Of a stretch of DNA of 8,263 nt, positions 1 to 8,263 are shown in pieces (position 1 is the stretch's first letter; every line of letters starts with the position of its first letter). Source of the DNA: Clostridia bacterium (GTDB taxonomy: Bacteria; Bacillota_A; Clostridia; Christensenellales; Aristaeellaceae); the NCBI GenBank assembly GCA_017481185.1, contig JAFUPO010000407.1, positions 1 through 8,263 of the forward strand. The letters are read 5' to 3'. The position numbers and the translations under genes are program-made. Under the pieces are notes generated by a model. The model did not search any database. It was not told where the DNA came from and saw nothing but the letters and a program-made list of their open reading frames with translations.

Positions 1-591
1 CATTACGCCGCCCTCGCCCTGCACCATCTCCAGCATCACGCCGCAAACGTTGCCTTCCTCCATAATTGCTTCAAGGGCCTGCGCGTCATTGGCAGGGGCG
101 TAAACAAAATCCCCCGGGAAGGGGCCAAAGTGGTGATGAAACACATCCTGCCCCGTGGCCGCCAGGGTAGCCAGGGTACGGCCATGGAAGCTGTTTTGCA
201 GCGTCACGATCACTGAATGGCCGGGCCCCCGCTTGTCGCTGGCATACTTGCGGGCCACCTTGATCATGCACTCATTGGCCTCTGCGCCAGAGTTGCCGAA
301 GAACACCTTGGCCATGCCGGTCTTTTCACACAGGAGCTTGGCAAGTTTGGCTTGAGGGCTAGTATAATATAGGTGAGAAGCATGGCTCAAGGTCTGAAGC
401 TGCCGGGTCACCGCCTCTGCCCATATCGGGTCGCAAGCGCCGCAGGTATTGACCGCAATGCCGCTGCCCAGGGCAATGTATTCCTTGCCGTTTTCGTCGG
501 TCCAAACCGCTCCCTGGCCCTTGGCCAGCGGCACGTTGAAGCGGCCATAGGTATTAGCGATATAGGTTTGATCCATTTCCTGAAGGTTCAA
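1..591 (-). CDS. argD: Acetylornithine aminotransferase ArgD, N-terminal 197 codons (partial)
   Basis: PLP-dependent class III aminotransferase that converts N-acetylglutamate semialdehyde and glutamate to N-acetylornithine and 2-oxoglutarate in the cytoplasm. Translation in this frame is open to the window edge, so the C-terminal half, including the PLP-binding lysine, is not visible. Family features seen: the N-terminal NTYGRF segment, a GSGIAVN stretch, HLYYTSPQAKLAKLL, the PLP-phosphate loop FFGNSGAEANE, NSFHGRTLATLAATG, and EMVQGEGGV just before the edge. I chose the TTG at 589-591 because GGGAGG ends 7 nt upstream of it, and because it gives the usual N-terminus (M)NLQEMDQTYIANTYGRF. 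The ATG at 574-576 would drop five residues and lie too far from the ribosome binding site. It is the last arg gene visible and starts 13 nt after the argB stop. The identification is firm; whether the missing part is intact cannot be seen. Confidence 0.95.
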   Translation of the reverse strand, partial: MNLQEMDQTYIANTYGRFNVPLAKGQGAVWTDENGKEYIALGSGIAVNTCGACDPIWAEAVTRQLQTLSHASHLYYTSPQAKLAKLLCEKTGMAKVFFGNSGAEANECMIKVARKYASDKRGPGHSVIVTLQNSFHGRTLATLAATGQDVFHHHFGPFPGDFVYAPANDAQALEAIMEEGNVCGVMLEMVQGEGGVM

Positions 592-604: not shown

Positions 605-1459
605 TTATTTCACAAACATGGTGCCGATGCCCTCGTTGGTCAGCGTTTCAATCAAGATGGAATGAGGGATACGGCAATCAATAATAAACACCTTGCGCAC
701 GCCCATATTCAAAGCTTCCATGCAGCAGTCGGCCTTGGGGATCATGCCGCCAGTAATCACGCCTTGGCTGATTAATTCCTCAGTTTCCTCCTGCGTCAGC
801 TTCTGGATCAGGGAGGAAGGATCCTCCGGATCCCGGAGCACGCCGCAGGTATCGGTCATGGAGATCAGGCTCTCAGCCTTCAGGCTGCCCGCAATGGCTG
901 CCGCCGCCGTATCGGCGTTCACATTGTATACGTTGCCTTCCTTGTCGCAGCCCAGGGTGGAGATGACAGGGATATACCCTTTCTCCAGCAGATCCACAAT
1001 AGGCTGGGGGCGAATCTTTTCGATCTGGCCCACATAGCCCAGGCGCTGATCCAGCATAGAGGTTTCAATCATGCGGCCGTCCATACCGCACAGGCCCATG
1101 GCCTTGCCGCCGATATTATTGAGGAAAGCCACCAGTGATTTATTGATCTTGCCTGCCAGCACCATCTGCACAATCTCTGCCGTTTCCGCATCGGTGACCC
1201 TCAGGCCGTTAACAAACTGTGTCTCCTTGCCCACCCGCTTGAGCATATTTGAAATCTCAGGGCCGCCGCCATGAACCAGCACCACCTTCACCCCGATGAG
1301 GGACAGGAGCACAATGTCGCCCATGACCGCCTTTTTCAATTCTTCGTTAACCATGGCGTTGCCGCCATACTATACAACAACAACCTTTTGATTATACCGT
1401 TTGATGTAGGGCAGCGCCTCCACCAAGATCTGCGCCCTGTGGGCGTTATCGATTTTCAT
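605..1459 (-). CDS. argB: Acetylglutamate kinase ArgB, interrupted by an in-frame TAG at codon 30
   Basis: N-acetylglutamate kinase, second step of arginine synthesis, amino acid kinase fold. The start is the ATG at 1457-1459, 7 nt after GGGGAGG and 15 nt after the argJ stop. The frame reads MKIDNAHRAQILVEALPYI, then KRYNQKVVVV, then TAG, then YGGNAMVNEELKK and on to TAA at 605-607: 284 codons before the stop, a normal family length. The TAG replaces the lysine of the K-Y-G-G motif that contacts the ATP phosphates. Everything else looks intact: VHGGGPEIS (substrate loop), NGLRVTDAETAEIVQMVLAGKIN, NVNADTAAAAIA, and GGMIPKADCC. The N-terminal helix and the C-terminal HSILIETLTNEGIGTMF signature are those of arginine-inhibited, hexameric NAGK, which fits a cyclic pathway using ArgJ. 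An in-frame ATG at 1352-1354 could start a shorter protein, but it would lack the first strand and the glycine motif, so I do not take it as the real start. The gene is either a very recent pseudogene, a sequence error, or read through. Confidence 0.9.
1370..1372 (-). other. In-frame amber codon at the ATP-binding lysine of ArgB
   Basis: The plus-strand bases cta at 1370-1372 read TAG on the minus strand. The flanking codons are GTT GTT GTT GTA before and TAT GGC GGC AAC GCC ATG after, i.e. VVVV-stop-YGGNAM. Family knowledge puts lysine here (E. coli Lys8 equivalent). A single change from AAG explains the codon; no insertion or deletion is needed because the frame and spacing match on both sides. 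Confidence 0.93.
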
Positions 1460-1466
1460 CTTTCTT

Positions 1467-1473
1467 CCTCCCC
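1467..1473 (-). promoter_or_regulatory. Ribosome binding site of argB
   Basis: GGGGAGG on the minus strand, 7 nt before the ATG at 1457-1459. It is strong evidence that translation of argB starts upstream of the in-frame TAG, and that the gene does not begin at the internal ATG at 1352-1354, which has only a weak GGCGG ahead of it. Confidence 0.8.
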
Positions 1474-1474
1474 A

Positions 1475-2689
1475 TCAGGTACGGTAGTCGCCGTTGATCT
1501 TCACATAATCATAGGTCAGGTCGCAGCCCCAAGCCGTTGCCTGGCCTTCGCCGCAGTTCAGAGCAACATCAATGATGATCTCATCCTCAGAGAGGATCTT
1601 TTTTGCTTCCTCCTCGGAGAAAGCAACGCCTGCGCCATCTTGGCACACCAGAATCTCGCCCATGGTGGAAGCAAAGGATACATCCACCTTGTTCACATCC
1701 ACATCAGCCCCTGAATAGCCGATGGCGCACAGCACCCGGCCCCAGTTGGCGTCAGCGCCGAACATGGCCGCCTTCAAAAGGCTGGAACAAATAACGGACT
1801 TGGCCACGACCTTTGCGGTCTTTTCATCCGCCGCGCCGGTGACCTGGCAAGTAAGAAGCTTGGTCGCCCCCTCGCCATCCTTGGCGATGCAACGGCAAAG
1901 ATAGGTGGTCACCACCCGCAGCGCCTCGCAGAAGGCTTGATAATCATCATTTTCTTCAGTGATGGTCTCATTGCCCGCCAGGCCGTTGGCCAGCACGGTC
2001 ACCATATCGTTGGTGGAGGTATCCCCATCCACAGAAACCATATTGAAGGTATCCTTCACGTCCGCCTGGAGGGCCTTTTGAAGCATGGCAGGGGAAATCG
2101 CCGCGTCGGTGGTCACAAACACCAGCATGGTCGCCATATTGGGATGGATCATGCCAGAACCCTTAGCGATGCCGCCCAAACGGCATACCTTGCCGCCCAC
2201 TTCAAAAGAAACAGCCATTTCCTTAAGCCGGGTATCGGTGGTCATAATGGCAGCTGCCGCATCCTGGCTGCCCTCGGCGCTAAGCGCCTCCACCAGGGGC
2301 GGGATACCCGCAGCGATGGGCGTAATATCCAAAGGCTGACCAATCACGCCAGTGGAAGCCACCACCACATCGCAAGCTTTAATACCGGCTGCCTGCTCCA
2401 CCAAGGCGCACATCTGCTCAGCGATTTCGATGCCGTTGGCGTTGCAGGTATTGGCATTGCCGCTATTGCAGATCACAGCCTGGGCTATGCCGTTAGCCAG
2501 ATTGGCTTTGGTAACCAGCAGAGGCGCACCCTTCACCAGGTTCTGGGTGTAAACTGCCGCTGCTGCAGCAGGCGCCTCGCTAACGATCAGCGCCAAATCC
2601 TTTTTTTCACGGTTCTTGCGAATACCACAGTGAACGCCCGATGCTTTAAACCCTTTTGCGGCACAAATGCCGCCGTTGATCATTTCCAT
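1475..2689 (-). CDS. argJ: Glutamate N-acetyltransferase ArgJ (ornithine acetyltransferase)
   Basis: Transfers the acetyl group from N-acetylornithine to glutamate, releasing ornithine and regenerating N-acetylglutamate; some members also use acetyl-CoA, which cannot be told from sequence alone. The 404-residue product has normal family length. It contains the oxyanion-hole segment ASTGVIGQPLDITP (about residues 111-124), TTDT (150-153), and the self-cleavage site in KGSGMIHPNMATMLVFVTTDA. Cleavage between Ala186 and Thr187 should give alpha and beta chains, with Thr187 as the nucleophile. The C-terminus ends in the conserved DLTYDYVKINGDYRT. The frame extends to a TTG at 2708-2710, but that lies over the ribosome binding site; AGGAGG ends 5 nt before the ATG at 2687-2689. 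A further ATG at 2681-2683 is possible. The gene begins 10 nt after the argC stop and ends in TGA 15 nt before argB. Confidence 0.97.
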   Translation of the reverse strand: MEMINGGICAAKGFKASGVHCGIRKNREKKDLALIVSEAPAAAAAVYTQNLVKGAPLLVTKANLANGIAQAVICNSGNANTCNANGIEIAEQMCALVEQAAGIKACDVVVASTGVIGQPLDITPIAAGIPPLVEALSAEGSQDAAAAIMTTDTRLKEMAVSFEVGGKVCRLGGIAKGSGMIHPNMATMLVFVTTDAAISPAMLQKALQADVKDTFNMVSVDGDTSTNDMVTVLANGLAGNETITEENDDYQAFCEALRVVTTYLCRCIAKDGEGATKLLTCQVTGAADEKTAKVVAKSVICSSLLKAAMFGADANWGRVLCAIGYSGADVDVNKVDVSFASTMGEILVCQDGAGVAFSEEEAKKILSEDEIIIDVALNCGEGQATAWGCDLTYDYVKINGDYRT

Positions 2690-2694
2690 AATAT

Positions 2695-2700
2695 CCTCCT
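2695..2700 (-). promoter_or_regulatory. Ribosome binding site of argJ
   Basis: AGGAGG overlaps the last base of the argC TAA stop and lies 5 nt before the ATG at 2687-2689. It rules out the longer TTG start at 2708-2710, which lies upstream of this site, and implies coupled translation of argC and argJ. Confidence 0.8.
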
Positions 2701-3638
2701 TATAGCGCAAGGCCGGTGGTCATGGGTACGCCCATCATCAGGTTCAAGCACTGCACAGCCGCCCCCGAGGATCCCTTGCCCAAATTATCAAACCGCGCCA
2801 TGGTCAAAATCCGATCATCATTGCCCGAGATGATAATCTCCATCCCGTCCCTTTGAGAGAGGGAATTCCCTGCCGCAAAGCCGCCCAGCGCCTGGGTTTC
2901 CTCCTCCGTATATACGTGAATGAAGGGCTGGTTAGCATAATGCTCGGCATACAGGCTTCGCAGTTTTTCAACGGTCAGGCCCTTGCCCTTGCCCCAGAGC
3001 GGCACCGTGACCAGCATCCCGCTGTAAAAGTCAGATACGATGGGGCAGAAAATCGGCAGCTCTTTCAGGCCGGAAATGGCAGCCATTTCTTTTAGGTGCT
3101 TATGCTGCTGGGTCAGGCCATACTGACGGGGGCTGTCAAGCTCAATATCGCGGCCCTGAGCTTCATACTGGGCGATCATCTTTTTGCCGCCGCCGGAATA
3201 GCCGGTGATGGAATGGCAGTACAGCCCTTCCTCAGAGGATACCAGACCTTCTTGCACCAGCGGATAAGCCAGCGCGATAAAGCCGGAAGCATGGCAGCCG
3301 GGCACAGCCACACGCTTGCCCCTCTGAATTGCCTTTAAATGCTCCGGGGAAAGCTCCGGAAATCCGTAGGCCCAGTCAGCCAAGGTGCGGTGGGCTGTGG
3401 AGGTATCCAGCACCCGGGTATTGGGCTGATCGATCAAACTAACAGATTCCTGGGCAGCCGCATCCGGCAGGCAGAGAATGGCGATGTCCGCCTGATTCAA
3501 ACATTCTTTACGGGCCTGCGGATCCTTGCGCTTGGCCTCGTCAATCAGAATCAACTCAATATCCTCTCGCCCGGTCAGCCGCTCATAGATGCGCAGCCCG
3601 GTGGTTCCCTCCCGGCCATCGATAAAAACCTTCGTCAA
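2700..3638 (-). CDS. argC: N-acetyl-gamma-glutamyl-phosphate reductase ArgC, short type
   Basis: NADPH-dependent reductase that turns N-acetylglutamyl phosphate into N-acetylglutamate semialdehyde. At 312 residues it belongs to the shorter ArgC subfamily. Visible motifs: the dinucleotide-binding loop FIDGREGTTGLRIYERL from residue 5, ILCLPDAA (about 54-61), LDTSTAHR (77-84), the catalytic Cys115 in VAVPGCHASGF, GYSGGGKKMI, and a C-terminal NLGKGSSGAAVQCLN segment that is usual in the family. The start is the TTG at 3636-3638, which gives MTKVFIDG, with GGGGG ending 8 nt upstream; there is no ATG nearby. It is the first gene of the arg operon, about 44 nt downstream of a likely transcription start. 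It ends in TAA, and the argJ ribosome binding site overlaps that stop. Confidence 0.96.
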   Translation of the reverse strand: MTKVFIDGREGTTGLRIYERLTGREDIELILIDEAKRKDPQARKECLNQADIAILCLPDAAAQESVSLIDQPNTRVLDTSTAHRTLADWAYGFPELSPEHLKAIQRGKRVAVPGCHASGFIALAYPLVQEGLVSSEEGLYCHSITGYSGGGKKMIAQYEAQGRDIELDSPRQYGLTQQHKHLKEMAAISGLKELPIFCPIVSDFYSGMLVTVPLWGKGKGLTVEKLRSLYAEHYANQPFIHVYTEEETQALGGFAAGNSLSQRDGMEIIISGNDDRILTMARFDNLGKGSSGAAVQCLNLMMGVPMTTGLAL

Positions 3639-3789: not shown

Positions 3790-6700
3790 TTACTTCCACA
3801 CCTGAGTGGGGGCAGGCTTCATGGCCTCCGGCTTCACCCCTTCGTCTCTTAGGGCAAAACCTAAATCAAAATTGAAGTTTTTAACATTGCTGCGAATCTC
3901 TACGCCAGTGATGATCTGACTGGTTTCGTCGCTTTCCTCCAACTGGCTGCCCAACAGAACCAAGTCTGTGCGCTTCTGGGTGGGAATCAGCTCCTCATGC
4001 CAGAGTATCTCTACATCATAAACGCTGGGATAAACATTGTCAAAGAGATAGTAGCCGTAAATGTCAGTCACCGCTTCATGGATCATCAGGCCATCCTTGA
4101 TAAGGCGAACGGTGATGCCGGGCATGGCTGCTTCCGTCGTATCCTGCAAGCCATTGCCGTTTTCATCCAGCCATGCTTTATCGCCCAGCATACCAGGCTT
4201 CACAGCGCCAATATCCAAACCGCTTTCATGGGCGCCCATGATCACATGAATGGGATAGCTTACGCCCGTTGCGCCAGCCTCCTCCTGAATGATGCTCATC
4301 ATCAGGCCGCTGGTCACTCGATCATCCTGGTCGTTCACCAGCAGATACCCGTCAGGCAGTGCAACTTGAATCTCGTAATCTCCAGGCAGCACGCTATCAA
4401 AGCGATAGGCGCCGTCTTCGCCAGTGGTCATACTGCCCACGACCATGCCATCCTCATTGACCAGGTTCACCGCCGTGCCCGGCAGCGCCATCGCCGTGCC
4501 AGCTTCATCCTGCCAGGCCATGCCCTCCAGAACGGTATACTGAACGATACCAGCGCTCAGGCCTTCCTTGTATTCCCCTGCGGAAAGCCCAAAGGCAGGC
4601 TCTACCAATTCGCCATCCCCATTATCCTGGAAGGTGGCATACCCTGCCTTCGCGGCAATGCAGCCTGCCGGCAGCTCCACCAAGGCATCATAGCTGCCAG
4701 GAACCAAGCCCGCAAACTGAAAGCGGCCATCGCTGTCCGTTACAGCCTGATAGCGGGTCGTGCCATCGGTCAGATCCCTCAGGGTCACATCCATGCCGGA
4801 AAGCATGGTGTCCATCTCGTTCCAAGAGCCGGATAGGTCTTCATCCATCCAAATATAACCTGTGATCTGGGCCTGGGGCACCATACCGATCATCAAACCT
4901 GTATCCATCTGCCCTGCGGCAGCGTTATAGATGCCTTCGTAGGTATTTTGCCCTCGAGGAGCAATAGCTTCGCCGTTACGGGTAAACACATAGTTTTCAA
5001 GGCCTGCCAGATTCAGCGTATAGCTGCCCGGGCGAATCCCATCTACCAGGAACGCGCCGTCTGCGCCGGTAATTTGTTCCTGACCCTCAAACGTCAGCCG
5101 CACCCCTGACAGGAATCTCTCGCCTTCTTCATACTGGCCGGAGCCGTTCAGATCTTCGTAGATTCGTCCCTCCAACCGGGCCAGAATCAGGCCGCCAGCC
5201 AGAGGCATGGCCTTCTGGTCTGCCGTTTTGAAATCGAAAATATCGCTGGCCGCCGTCAGGCCAACGCCTGTCAGCACATTGCCGCCAGCTGCCACAGGGG
5301 CAAAAGCGCCGCCTTCAGGCAGGTCGTACCGTACATGGTAGGATCCGGGCATCACCCGATTAAAGCTATAGCCGCCGTCATTGCCGGTAACCGTCTGGAA
5401 GGCAATCGTTCCCTCCTTCTGGTTCACCAGCGTCACCGTTACGCCGGCCAAACCGCCTTCGCCGCCGTCCTGCACACCGTTATCGTTGGCATCGTTAAAG
5501 AACGCGCCGCTAACTCGGCCAGGCCGGATCAAACCGCCGTCAACCCCTTCAAGATTCTGGCCCATAGCCAGCATCAAAGAGGCAGTTTCCCCATCTCCTT
5601 CATCGCTCAGGGAGGTGACCAAGTTGCCTTCCCCAAGCTTCGTAAACACATAGCCGTCCTTGGCTTCCATACGCACCTGATAGGCGCCGGGCACCAGGCC
5701 AGCAAAATGATAGCTGCCGTTATGATCAGATCGATCCCGTGCAATGATCTGCCCAGCTGCATCAACCAAAGCCACATCCAGGTTGGCGGCAGCCGCCTCA
5801 CGGTTGTCCTGAACGCCGGTATAGTTATCATCCATATAGATGGTGCCGGAAATGGAGCCGGTACGCACCGCGCCGACATAAACTGTTTTCTGCTCCATAT
5901 CCTCCATCGGGAGTTTTTGAAGAGTACTATCCTGACGACCGTCACGGGCCTCGAACCAGTTGCCCGCCTCGCTCATGCTGACCGCGTGGGTGAAAACTAC
6001 CGTTTCATCCGGCAGGGTGGCTTTCAGGCGATAGTTGCCGCCCCGAAGAGCTTCAAAGCGGAACGTGCCTGTTGCATCCACCGTAACGCTGCCCATCTTA
6101 TCGCCTGTGGAGATCTTCTCCAGCACCAGCTCCACGCCAGCCAGAGGTTCATCCCCCTCCTGATAAATGCCGTCATAATCAGGATCCAGGAATACGATGC
6201 CCTCAATCACGCCTCCGGTAACCAAGCCAACATTCTGGCTATCGATGGTTTTGCCCGCTTCCACCACGATGGTCTTCTCGCCAGTGCGCAAGCCCTCGCC
6301 GGTGAAGATGGAGCGCATATCCCGCCCCGTTTTGCTGTAGCGGGTAAACATCATGCCCTCAGGCGTCGTCACAGTCAGATCATAGCTGCCCGGACGCACA
6401 CCGCTAAAGCGGTAAACACCGGTCTCATCCGTTACCAGCTCGTAGCTCACGCCACCGGATCTGCGGGGCACCAGCTGCACGACCACGCCAGCCTGACCCG
6501 GCTCATCCTCTGTCATGATGCCGCTGGCATCAGAGTCGTACCACACCTTGCCGGAAACGAAGCCTAGCTTCACCACACCCGCTGCCACAGCCGTTTGACC
6601 GCCCTGGGTCAGCGTGATGGGATCCGTATCCGCCTGGCGGCCTTCCTGCTTTGCAATCGCGCTGGTGTAATCATTCATTTTGTCGCCCTTGGCGCTAAAG

Positions 6701-8263
6701 GCGTAGCCCTCAGGCAGCTGGAAACGCACTTGATATACGCCGGGAAGCAGCTGCTTAAAGCTTACCTCACCATCGGCATTGGTCGTGCCGGAGGCTGCGA
6801 TATTGCCCTGCTGATCCACGGCGCTGACCGTGATACCCGCCACAGCCCGCTCGTAGATACCGCGGCTTCCGTTTTCGTTGGAATCCCAGAAAACGACCGC
6901 CCGCAGGCCCGTAGGAACCACCAGCGTGCCGTTCATGCCGGTGAGCTGCTGCCCATCGCCCACCTGGAAGGGAGCAGACTGCCCATCCTTAGCAATAATG
7001 CTGCCGCCAATCAGGTTAAAGGCTGTGCCCGCCGGGGCTTCCATGGCCAGGCTGTAGGTGCCGGGCATCAGATTGCTGAACTGATAATTGCCCTGATCAT
7101 CCGTAGCCGTCGTATGGTACAGCTCATAGCTATCACCCACAAGGCGGTACAGGCTCACGGGGAACTGGGTTTTTGCGCTTTCTCCACCATCCAGCACGCC
7201 ATTAGCGTTCTGATCCTCAAAAACCTGGCCGGATACCTGGCCCTCCCGGTAAAGGGCCAGCGTCTCTAGCAGCGCCGTCTGTTCCGCTGTCACCTGCACG
7301 GTCAAGGATGCAACGCCTTGCTGAACTGTCCACGCGCCGCCCTGCTGGGCCCCATAGCCTGCCGGAATGGCGACGCTCACCGTGTATGCGCCGGGAATCA
7401 GATCATTAAAGGCGATGGTGCTTTGGGTCTCAAGGCTCCAGGCTTCCTGAACGCCCTGGGCTGTTACCGTTACAGGCACTGACTCCTGCCAGCTGATGCC
7501 GCCCTCCATGCGGCCCAACGCAGACAGGGTCAGGCGGTAGAGGCTGTCCTGGCCGCCGGTCACGCCCAGATTCCACTGGGCAGCGCCCTTCTGAGCAAAG
7601 TCATAACCGTTCAATGAGGCAAGCATCATCCCTTGCGGGAGATAAACTGCCATCTGATAATCTCCAGGATAGAGCTGGCTCATCGTAACCCTTCCATTTT
7701 GGAACACGCCGCTCTTAAGCACCTGGCCATTCTGGATCAGGCTAGCTTCCTGGCCATCCATGCCGGAGGCTTCTAGGGTCACGCTGCCCAGGGCCACCGC
7801 TTCTGCGTTGACCTGGGCTTCCTTGGTTTCTTCATTCAGCGCCACAGCCCCTGCCTGCCACTTGCCGCGGCTGCCGTCTACAAAGGCATAGGCATCGGCC
7901 ATATCGCCGGTCAACTCAAAGGTCACATCATAGGTTCCGGCAGTCAGCTGACTGAAGCGGTAAAGGCCCTGGCTATCCGTCACAGCCGTCTGCCCAGCTG
8001 CCGTCACCCCCACGCCCTCAAGGGGCGCGCCGTTCACCGTGACCTGCCCCTGAATCATGCAGGTCACCGTATAGGGGATCTCCATGCGGCCATTTGCTTC
8101 GCCAGTCATCATATGTTCCGGCAATACGAAGGTGAGGCTCTCTCCCTCTGGGAGGCTGCCGGGGATCTCGAAGCTGCCGTCTCCCTGGGTGTATGCTCTG
8201 AGGATCACGCCCTCCTGACGCTTCTCCACCCGCAGGCCGGTTTCGCCGGTCTCGCCGTTATCC
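3790..8263 (-). CDS. Giant SdrD_B/Cna-B-like repeat protein, N-terminus outside the window
   Basis: The frame is open to the high-coordinate edge (first full codon at 8260-8262) and gives 1490 residues ending in TAA at 3790-3792. A GTG at 8227-8229 lies in the frame, but reading continues upstream of it with DNGETGETGLRVEKR, so it is not the start. The visible part is almost wholly tandem beta-sandwich units: three degenerate ones, then about ten with the SdrD_B pattern G-x-(V/I)-(W/F/Y)-x-D-x-N-x-x-G, E, a GVxV strand, a TxxxGxYxF strand and a PGxY turn. Such units form stiff, often calcium-binding stalks in bacterial surface adhesins. I find only two cysteines. The C-terminus reads NFNFDLGFALRDEGVKPEAM then KPAPTQVWK, with no LPXTG motif, hydrophobic segment or positive tail. 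Secretion or anchoring must be decided by the unseen N-terminus. An extracellular role is inferred from the domains; the ligand is unknown. Confidence 0.9.
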   Translation of the reverse strand, partial: DNGETGETGLRVEKRQEGVILRAYTQGDGSFEIPGSLPEGESLTFVLPEHMMTGEANGRMEIPYTVTCMIQGQVTVNGAPLEGVGVTAAGQTAVTDSQGLYRFSQLTAGTYDVTFELTGDMADAYAFVDGSRGKWQAGAVALNEETKEAQVNAEAVALGSVTLEASGMDGQEASLIQNGQVLKSGVFQNGRVTMSQLYPGDYQMAVYLPQGMMLASLNGYDFAQKGAAQWNLGVTGGQDSLYRLTLSALGRMEGGISWQESVPVTVTAQGVQEAWSLETQSTIAFNDLIPGAYTVSVAIPAGYGAQQGGAWTVQQGVASLTVQVTAEQTALLETLALYREGQVSGQVFEDQNANGVLDGGESAKTQFPVSLYRLVGDSYELYHTTATDDQGNYQFSNLMPGTYSLAMEAPAGTAFNLIGGSIIAKDGQSAPFQVGDGQQLTGMNGTLVVPTGLRAVVFWDSNENGSRGIYERAVAGITVSAVDQQGNIAASGTTNADGEVSFKQLLPGVYQVRFQLPEGYAFSAKGDKMNDYTSAIAKQEGRQADTDPITLTQGGQTAVAAGVVKLGFVSGKVWYDSDASGIMTEDEPGQAGVVVQLVPRRSGGVSYELVTDETGVYRFSGVRPGSYDLTVTTPEGMMFTRYSKTGRDMRSIFTGEGLRTGEKTIVVEAGKTIDSQNVGLVTGGVIEGIVFLDPDYDGIYQEGDEPLAGVELVLEKISTGDKMGSVTVDATGTFRFEALRGGNYRLKATLPDETVVFTHAVSMSEAGNWFEARDGRQDSTLQKLPMEDMEQKTVYVGAVRTGSISGTIYMDDNYTGVQDNREAAAANLDVALVDAAGQIIARDRSDHNGSYHFAGLVPGAYQVRMEAKDGYVFTKLGEGNLVTSLSDEGDGETASLMLAMGQNLEGVDGGLIRPGRVSGAFFNDANDNGVQDGGEGGLAGVTVTLVNQKEGTIAFQTVTGNDGGYSFNRVMPGSYHVRYDLPEGGAFAPVAAGGNVLTGVGLTAASDIFDFKTADQKAMPLAGGLILARLEGRIYEDLNGSGQYEEGERFLSGVRLTFEGQEQITGADGAFLVDGIRPGSYTLNLAGLENYVFTRNGEAIAPRGQNTYEGIYNAAAGQMDTGLMIGMVPQAQITGYIWMDEDLSGSWNEMDTMLSGMDVTLRDLTDGTTRYQAVTDSDGRFQFAGLVPGSYDALVELPAGCIAAKAGYATFQDNGDGELVEPAFGLSAGEYKEGLSAGIVQYTVLEGMAWQDEAGTAMALPGTAVNLVNEDGMVVGSMTTGEDGAYRFDSVLPGDYEIQVALPDGYLLVNDQDDRVTSGLMMSIIQEEAGATGVSYPIHVIMGAHESGLDIGAVKPGMLGDKAWLDENGNGLQDTTEAAMPGITVRLIKDGLMIHEAVTDIYGYYLFDNVYPSVYDVEILWHEELIPTQKRTDLVLLGSQLEESDETSQIITGVEIRSNVKNFNFDLGFALRDEGVKPEAMKPAPTQVWK
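3853..7245 (-). repeat. Array of ten SdrD_B-like units of about 103-118 residues
   Basis: Unit boundaries by eye, minus strand: 7245-6913, 6912-6568, 6567-6220, 6219-5866, 5865-5527, 5526-5185, 5184-4876, 4875-4540, 4539-4195 and 4194-3853. Nine units carry an acidic loop resembling an EF-hand: DQNANGVLDGGE, DSNENGSRGIYE, DSDASGIMTEDE, DPDYDGIYQEGDE, DDNYTGVQDNRE, DANDNGVQDGGE, DLNGSGQYEEGE, DEDLSGSWNEMD and DENGNGLQDTTE. The ninth unit has lost it. All carry the turn before the last strand (mostly PG-x-Y). The units differ strongly from one another in protein sequence, so the array is old and not the product of recent tandem copying. Confidence 0.85.
7246..8058 (-). repeat. Three degenerate Cna-B-like units before the main array
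   Basis: Units at about 8058-7792, 7791-7519 and 7518-7246, each about 90 residues. Each keeps the core strand pattern and the G-x-Y turn (TAGTYDV, YPGDYQM, IPGAYTV) followed by a long polar stretch. None has the acidic D-x-N-x-x-G loop of the following ten units. They look more like plain carboxypeptidase-regulatory or Cna-B folds. A further 57 or so residues before 8058 have no clear assignment. Confidence 0.6.

Follow-up and report, generated by a model that had tools for sequence, protein, structure and literature searches.

The window, the whole 8,263-nucleotide stretch of DNA analysed here, carries an arginine biosynthesis operon in which one gene is broken by a single stop codon. Read on the minus strand, the order of frames is a large frame, argC, argJ, argB and argD, with the following features:

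2700..3638, minus strand: argC, of the TIGR01851 type
1475..2689, minus strand: argJ, identical over 404 residues to a copy on a 17,932-base contig
1457..1473, minus strand: argB start codon ATG with its Shine-Dalgarno sequence, GGGGAGGAAGAAAG
605..1459, minus strand: argB (N-acetylglutamate kinase; TIGR00761 and PF00696), interrupted at codon 30 and open onward to its TAA
1370..1372, minus strand: in-frame TAG at argB codon 30, the catalytic lysine position, placed by frame reading, alignment and PDB ranges
605..1354, minus strand: open frame of 249 amino acids from the next ATG (codon 36)
995..997, minus strand: argB codon 155, a variable site: Val here, Leu in the nearest copy
674..676, minus strand: argB codon 262, Cys where relatives have Gly, the second odd site
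1..591, minus strand: argD, cut by the window end and departing at four columns that at least 95% of relatives conserve

Within the window, argC, argB and the large frame terminate at TAA and argJ at TGA, so that the earlier tally of three TAA and one TGA, never TAG, is upheld. A single in-frame TAG occurs across the five frames, and no tRNA was found in the window. The large frame (3790-8262, minus strand), which adjoins the arginine operon, spans 1490 codons and is open at the window edge. Its ten SdrD_B stretches, nine CarboxypepD_reg stretches and one SpaA-like domain suggest a multi-domain, surface-protein-like repeat protein, whose C-terminus bears no obvious LPXTG-type tail by eye.

The interrupted gene is argB. 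Its frame comprises 285 codons from ATG 1459-1457 to TAA 607-605 and is open throughout except at codon 30. The strong ribosome binding site and start at 1457-1459 reported by the sequence-only reading are borne out, GGGGAGGAAGAAAG preceding the ATG, as is its central observation of a TAG at plus-strand positions 1370-1372, which is read on the minus strand as codon 30. Read through the stop, the product scores 259.8 bits against TIGR00761, well over the curated whole-protein cut-off of 151.3, and the 249-residue frame alone still reaches 246.7 bits. The same reading had placed the stop at the catalytic lysine, and this too holds. Alignment to PDB chain 1gs5 begins at query residue 27 and chain residue 5, which equates codon 30 with Lys8 of the Escherichia coli enzyme, a placement that rests on alignment ranges rather than on a residue-level alignment and stands provided that those four residues are ungapped. 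In an account of E. coli N-acetylglutamate kinase (NAGK), this lysine is described as invariant and as stabilising the transition state (PMC11609274). The codon at this catalytic position is TAG here.

Lysine occupies the codon-30 site in 141 of 143 ArgB homologues, the union of those listed by two ArgB searches (each listing its top 120 out of 8000 scored); 140 of these were counted by pairwise alignment and one, P0011, by multiple alignment. P0011 (376 amino acids, from a contig of 174,392 bases) is an ArgB homologue that contains an internal tandem duplication. The other two homologues, P0122 (252 amino acids) and P0142 (250 amino acids), start after the site; they represent clusters of four and three members, respectively, and are possibly short gene calls. 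The lysine is likewise present in all 115 distinct argB locus sequences from public genomes (126 sequences less 11 duplicates), and the 14 aligned relatives, down to 66% identity, all have Lys at 30 and Gly at 262. A stop at the codon-30 site was found in none of the 143 listed proteins and in none of 135 argB locus matches; the latter contain no internal stop of any kind, and none appeared among the matches listed from searches of class- and order-level genome samples. Over the arg-gene locus matches as a whole, isolated internal stops number one in 426 (some genomes counted twice), a low rate for draft data of this kind. That sole case is a TAG in the argD of locus L045, at match 10864-11448, in another metagenome-assembled genome.

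The most informative comparison is with the nearest intact copy. ArgJ P0145, from a 17,932-base contig, matches the window ArgJ at 404 of 404 residues, and ArgB P0002, an intact protein of 284 residues with Lys at 30, also comes from a 17,932-base contig; given the equal size, the two very likely lie side by side on one contig. The window ArgB differs from P0002 at only three residues, namely the stop for K30, V for L155 and C for G262. The lysine in the ArgB paired with that ArgJ shows that the TAG is not a feature of the lineage. When the 249-residue ArgB frame of the window served as query, no identical protein appeared among the best 120 listed, although such a protein would have come top, and the window ArgJ is in the same protein collection. 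Either the collection lacks the window record or it was built from different argB letters, a result that leans toward error. More distant surveys brought nothing nearer. ArgB identity did not exceed about 72% in a scan of genome contigs, from which 80 of 88 loci were retained, in a sample of the class (n = 391), in order samples (n = 295, 295 and 394, with many genomes shared) or in orders of 9 and 28 genomes; the order-sample search of 394 ran without a positive control, and its empty answer shows little. The best ArgJ identity in a family of 63 genomes was 77%, and viral contigs scanned with ArgJ yielded no relative.

The stop is not the only oddity of this argB. Residue 262, which went unnoticed earlier, is glycine in all 143 listed homologues and in all 113 locus sequences that reach the position. 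The earlier description of the 254 codons after the stop as "fully conserved" consequently does not stand, since Cys replaces this Gly. Nor does one change explain the distance from the nearest intact ArgB, which amounts to three residues. Two of these three differences fall on columns conserved to at least 95% in the 115 distinct locus sequences, compared with one of 127 variable positions among the 14 closest aligned relatives (Fisher p 0.001, a value that overstates certainty, the counts being tiny and the relatives not independent). Recounting leads to the same conclusion: one of 95 with 11 of the 14 relatives (P0009, P0011 and P0014 left out; p 0.002), one of 101 without P0011 alone, and none of 59 for the eight nearest. 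In leave-one-out comparisons, the window argB shows two departures at columns conserved to at least 95%, counting the stop as one, a number that 37 of 120 loci reach; both departures are unseen in other loci, which four of the 120 loci match. The argD piece has four departures, equalled by five of 99 loci, and three of these are residues found in no other locus, a number reached by two of the 99. They are D161, H73 and A40 of ArgD (window 109-111, 373-375 and 472-474, minus strand); all 90 distinct locus sequences carry G, N and D, respectively, at these sites. No close relative is reachable for ArgD, the best being at about 65%, so these residues could be lineage traits; they could also reflect decay or error. 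The argC gene has one departure (38 of 65 loci have as many) and argJ none. The oddities are thus concentrated in the 1-1372 part of the window, a clustering that fits thin coverage near a contig end and also the decay of a dead gene.

Taken with the identical ArgJ P0145 and the intact ArgB P0002, regarded as one contig, these observations indicate that the TAG is an isolated change on a single contig, most likely a sequence error, rather than a conserved or functional codon. The error would have arisen as a misread in a thin-coverage stretch, in assembly or in the copying of the record, and the real organism would carry an intact argB, an ordinary NAGK gene of its arginine operon. Beyond the near-identity of the intact copy, we infer error rather than biology in part from the nature of the changes. 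By the genetic code each of the three ArgB differences requires at least one transversion, which mildly favours error over drift. On the other side, the departures of the window ArgB are by plain count not extreme, being equalled in the 37 of 120 loci noted above; errors would have to be patchy, ArgJ being free of differences; and differences clustered in argB also fit the decay of a dead gene. This last point leads to the alternative of a real, recent nonsense mutation in one strain, a less probable reading, in which translation stops after 29 codons and NAGK is lost. It is equally tentative that argB then decays, Cys 262 being one trace of this, while the strain imports arginine or ornithine from its surroundings. 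Auxotrophy is common among host-associated bacteria. A single stop in an otherwise open argB frame suits such a history, and a second unusual residue in argB, with none in argJ, fits relaxed selection at Cys 262. Against it, the remaining operon frames are open and argJ is unchanged, and neither the listed proteins nor the locus matches include another copy interrupted at codon 30. A far less probable rescue of such a gene, and the least credible of the readings weighed here, is re-initiation at the in-frame ATG 1354-1352, 15 bases past the stop, to yield a working shorter kinase. Two of the 143 listed homologues, P0122 and P0142, do begin at the same methionine, but these may be annotations of truncated or disrupted copies, and the site before the ATG is only GGCGGCAACGCC. 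The 249-residue product could be made in this way, yet it should be inactive: it would begin within the glycine-rich loop and lack both the first strand and the catalytic lysine, the Pfam AA_kinase domain starting at residue 25.

Decoding of UAG as an amino acid, whether as lysine through an amber suppressor tRNA, as pyrrolysine or as glutamine, would restore a full-length ArgB and is very improbable. Strong similarity does persist downstream of the stop, and four gene ends in the window lack TAG. The sequence-only reading had counted the latter as weak evidence for recoding; the count is true and carries no weight. TAG is a rare but functional stop in relatives, ending 7 of 151 long open reading frames (6 of 115 plus 1 of 36, mechanical frames of at least 150 amino acids from loci L001-L010 and L129-L137), and with TAG use at about 5%, four ends without it are expected by chance (0.83) and mean nothing. 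What is decisive is that the ArgB accompanying the identical ArgJ carries lysine at codon 30. Replacing the charged catalytic lysine by glutamine or pyrrolysine should inactivate the enzyme, since either removes the charge from a residue described as invariant (PMC11609274), so that only insertion of lysine would help. It is scarcely to be expected that an amber-suppressing tRNA reads UAG as lysine in this strain, such that a stop at the catalytic lysine is tolerated, and no more so that argB is one of few genes to have acquired TAG after a change of code. A pyrrolysine codon should be shared by relatives at the equivalent position, and none of the 143 listed proteins or 135 locus matches shows a stop there; nor do the window and the relatives' loci display TAG avoided as a stop and frequent inside conserved genes. 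In the family with the best ArgJ neighbours, none of the 63 genomes has a pylS match above the cut-off. Matches below it occur in 56 of the 63, and the controls also match weakly, 13 of 14 responding and one exceeding the cut-off. A CUA-like tRNA pattern matched 53 of the 63, and 12 of its loci were put to ARAGORN: 11 hold a tRNA-Arg(UCU) at the pattern match and L146, the twelfth, is truncated at that point, so the pattern is a poor test. These 63 genomes are related no more closely than at family level (ArgJ identity at most 77%) and constitute weak evidence on the window's own genome. According to the introduction of an eLife screen (PMC8629427), the bacterial code changes known before it all reassign UGA. 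Recoding thus finds no support, and of the three options raised from the sequence at the outset, only error and recent nonsense mutation are retained and favoured. The most likely ordering places error first, a private strain-level nonsense mutation second and recoding far behind.

Were the TAG read as an amino acid, the locus would exemplify a change from stop to sense in a bacterium of the Clostridia type; the evidence points otherwise. The case counsels caution, in that a lone stop on a single contig is best compared with the nearest intact copy first, a comparison that in this case brought a second suspect residue to light as well.

Known systems place the window gene in perspective. In gut Bilophila, as described in PMC7593587, a pyrrolysine TAG lies at a conserved site of the trimethylamine methyltransferase gene and the pyl genes are present. 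The resemblance is that of an in-frame TAG in a bacterial metabolic gene that is called short. In Bilophila, however, the TAG is conserved across genomes and accompanied by pyl genes, whereas the window TAG is in no relative examined and no pylS rises above the cut-off at the family level. The TAG in the L045 argD is alike in that a conserved gene, open but for one stop, is interrupted on a single contig; unlike that and similar stops in draft genomes, the window stop falls on a catalytic residue. With N-acetylglutamate kinase ArgB (TIGR00761; 2jj4, 2bty and 1gs5), the window gene shares its frame on both sides of the stop and its argC-argJ-argB-argD context, and it differs from these in carrying a stop at the catalytic lysine and Cys for Gly at residue 262.
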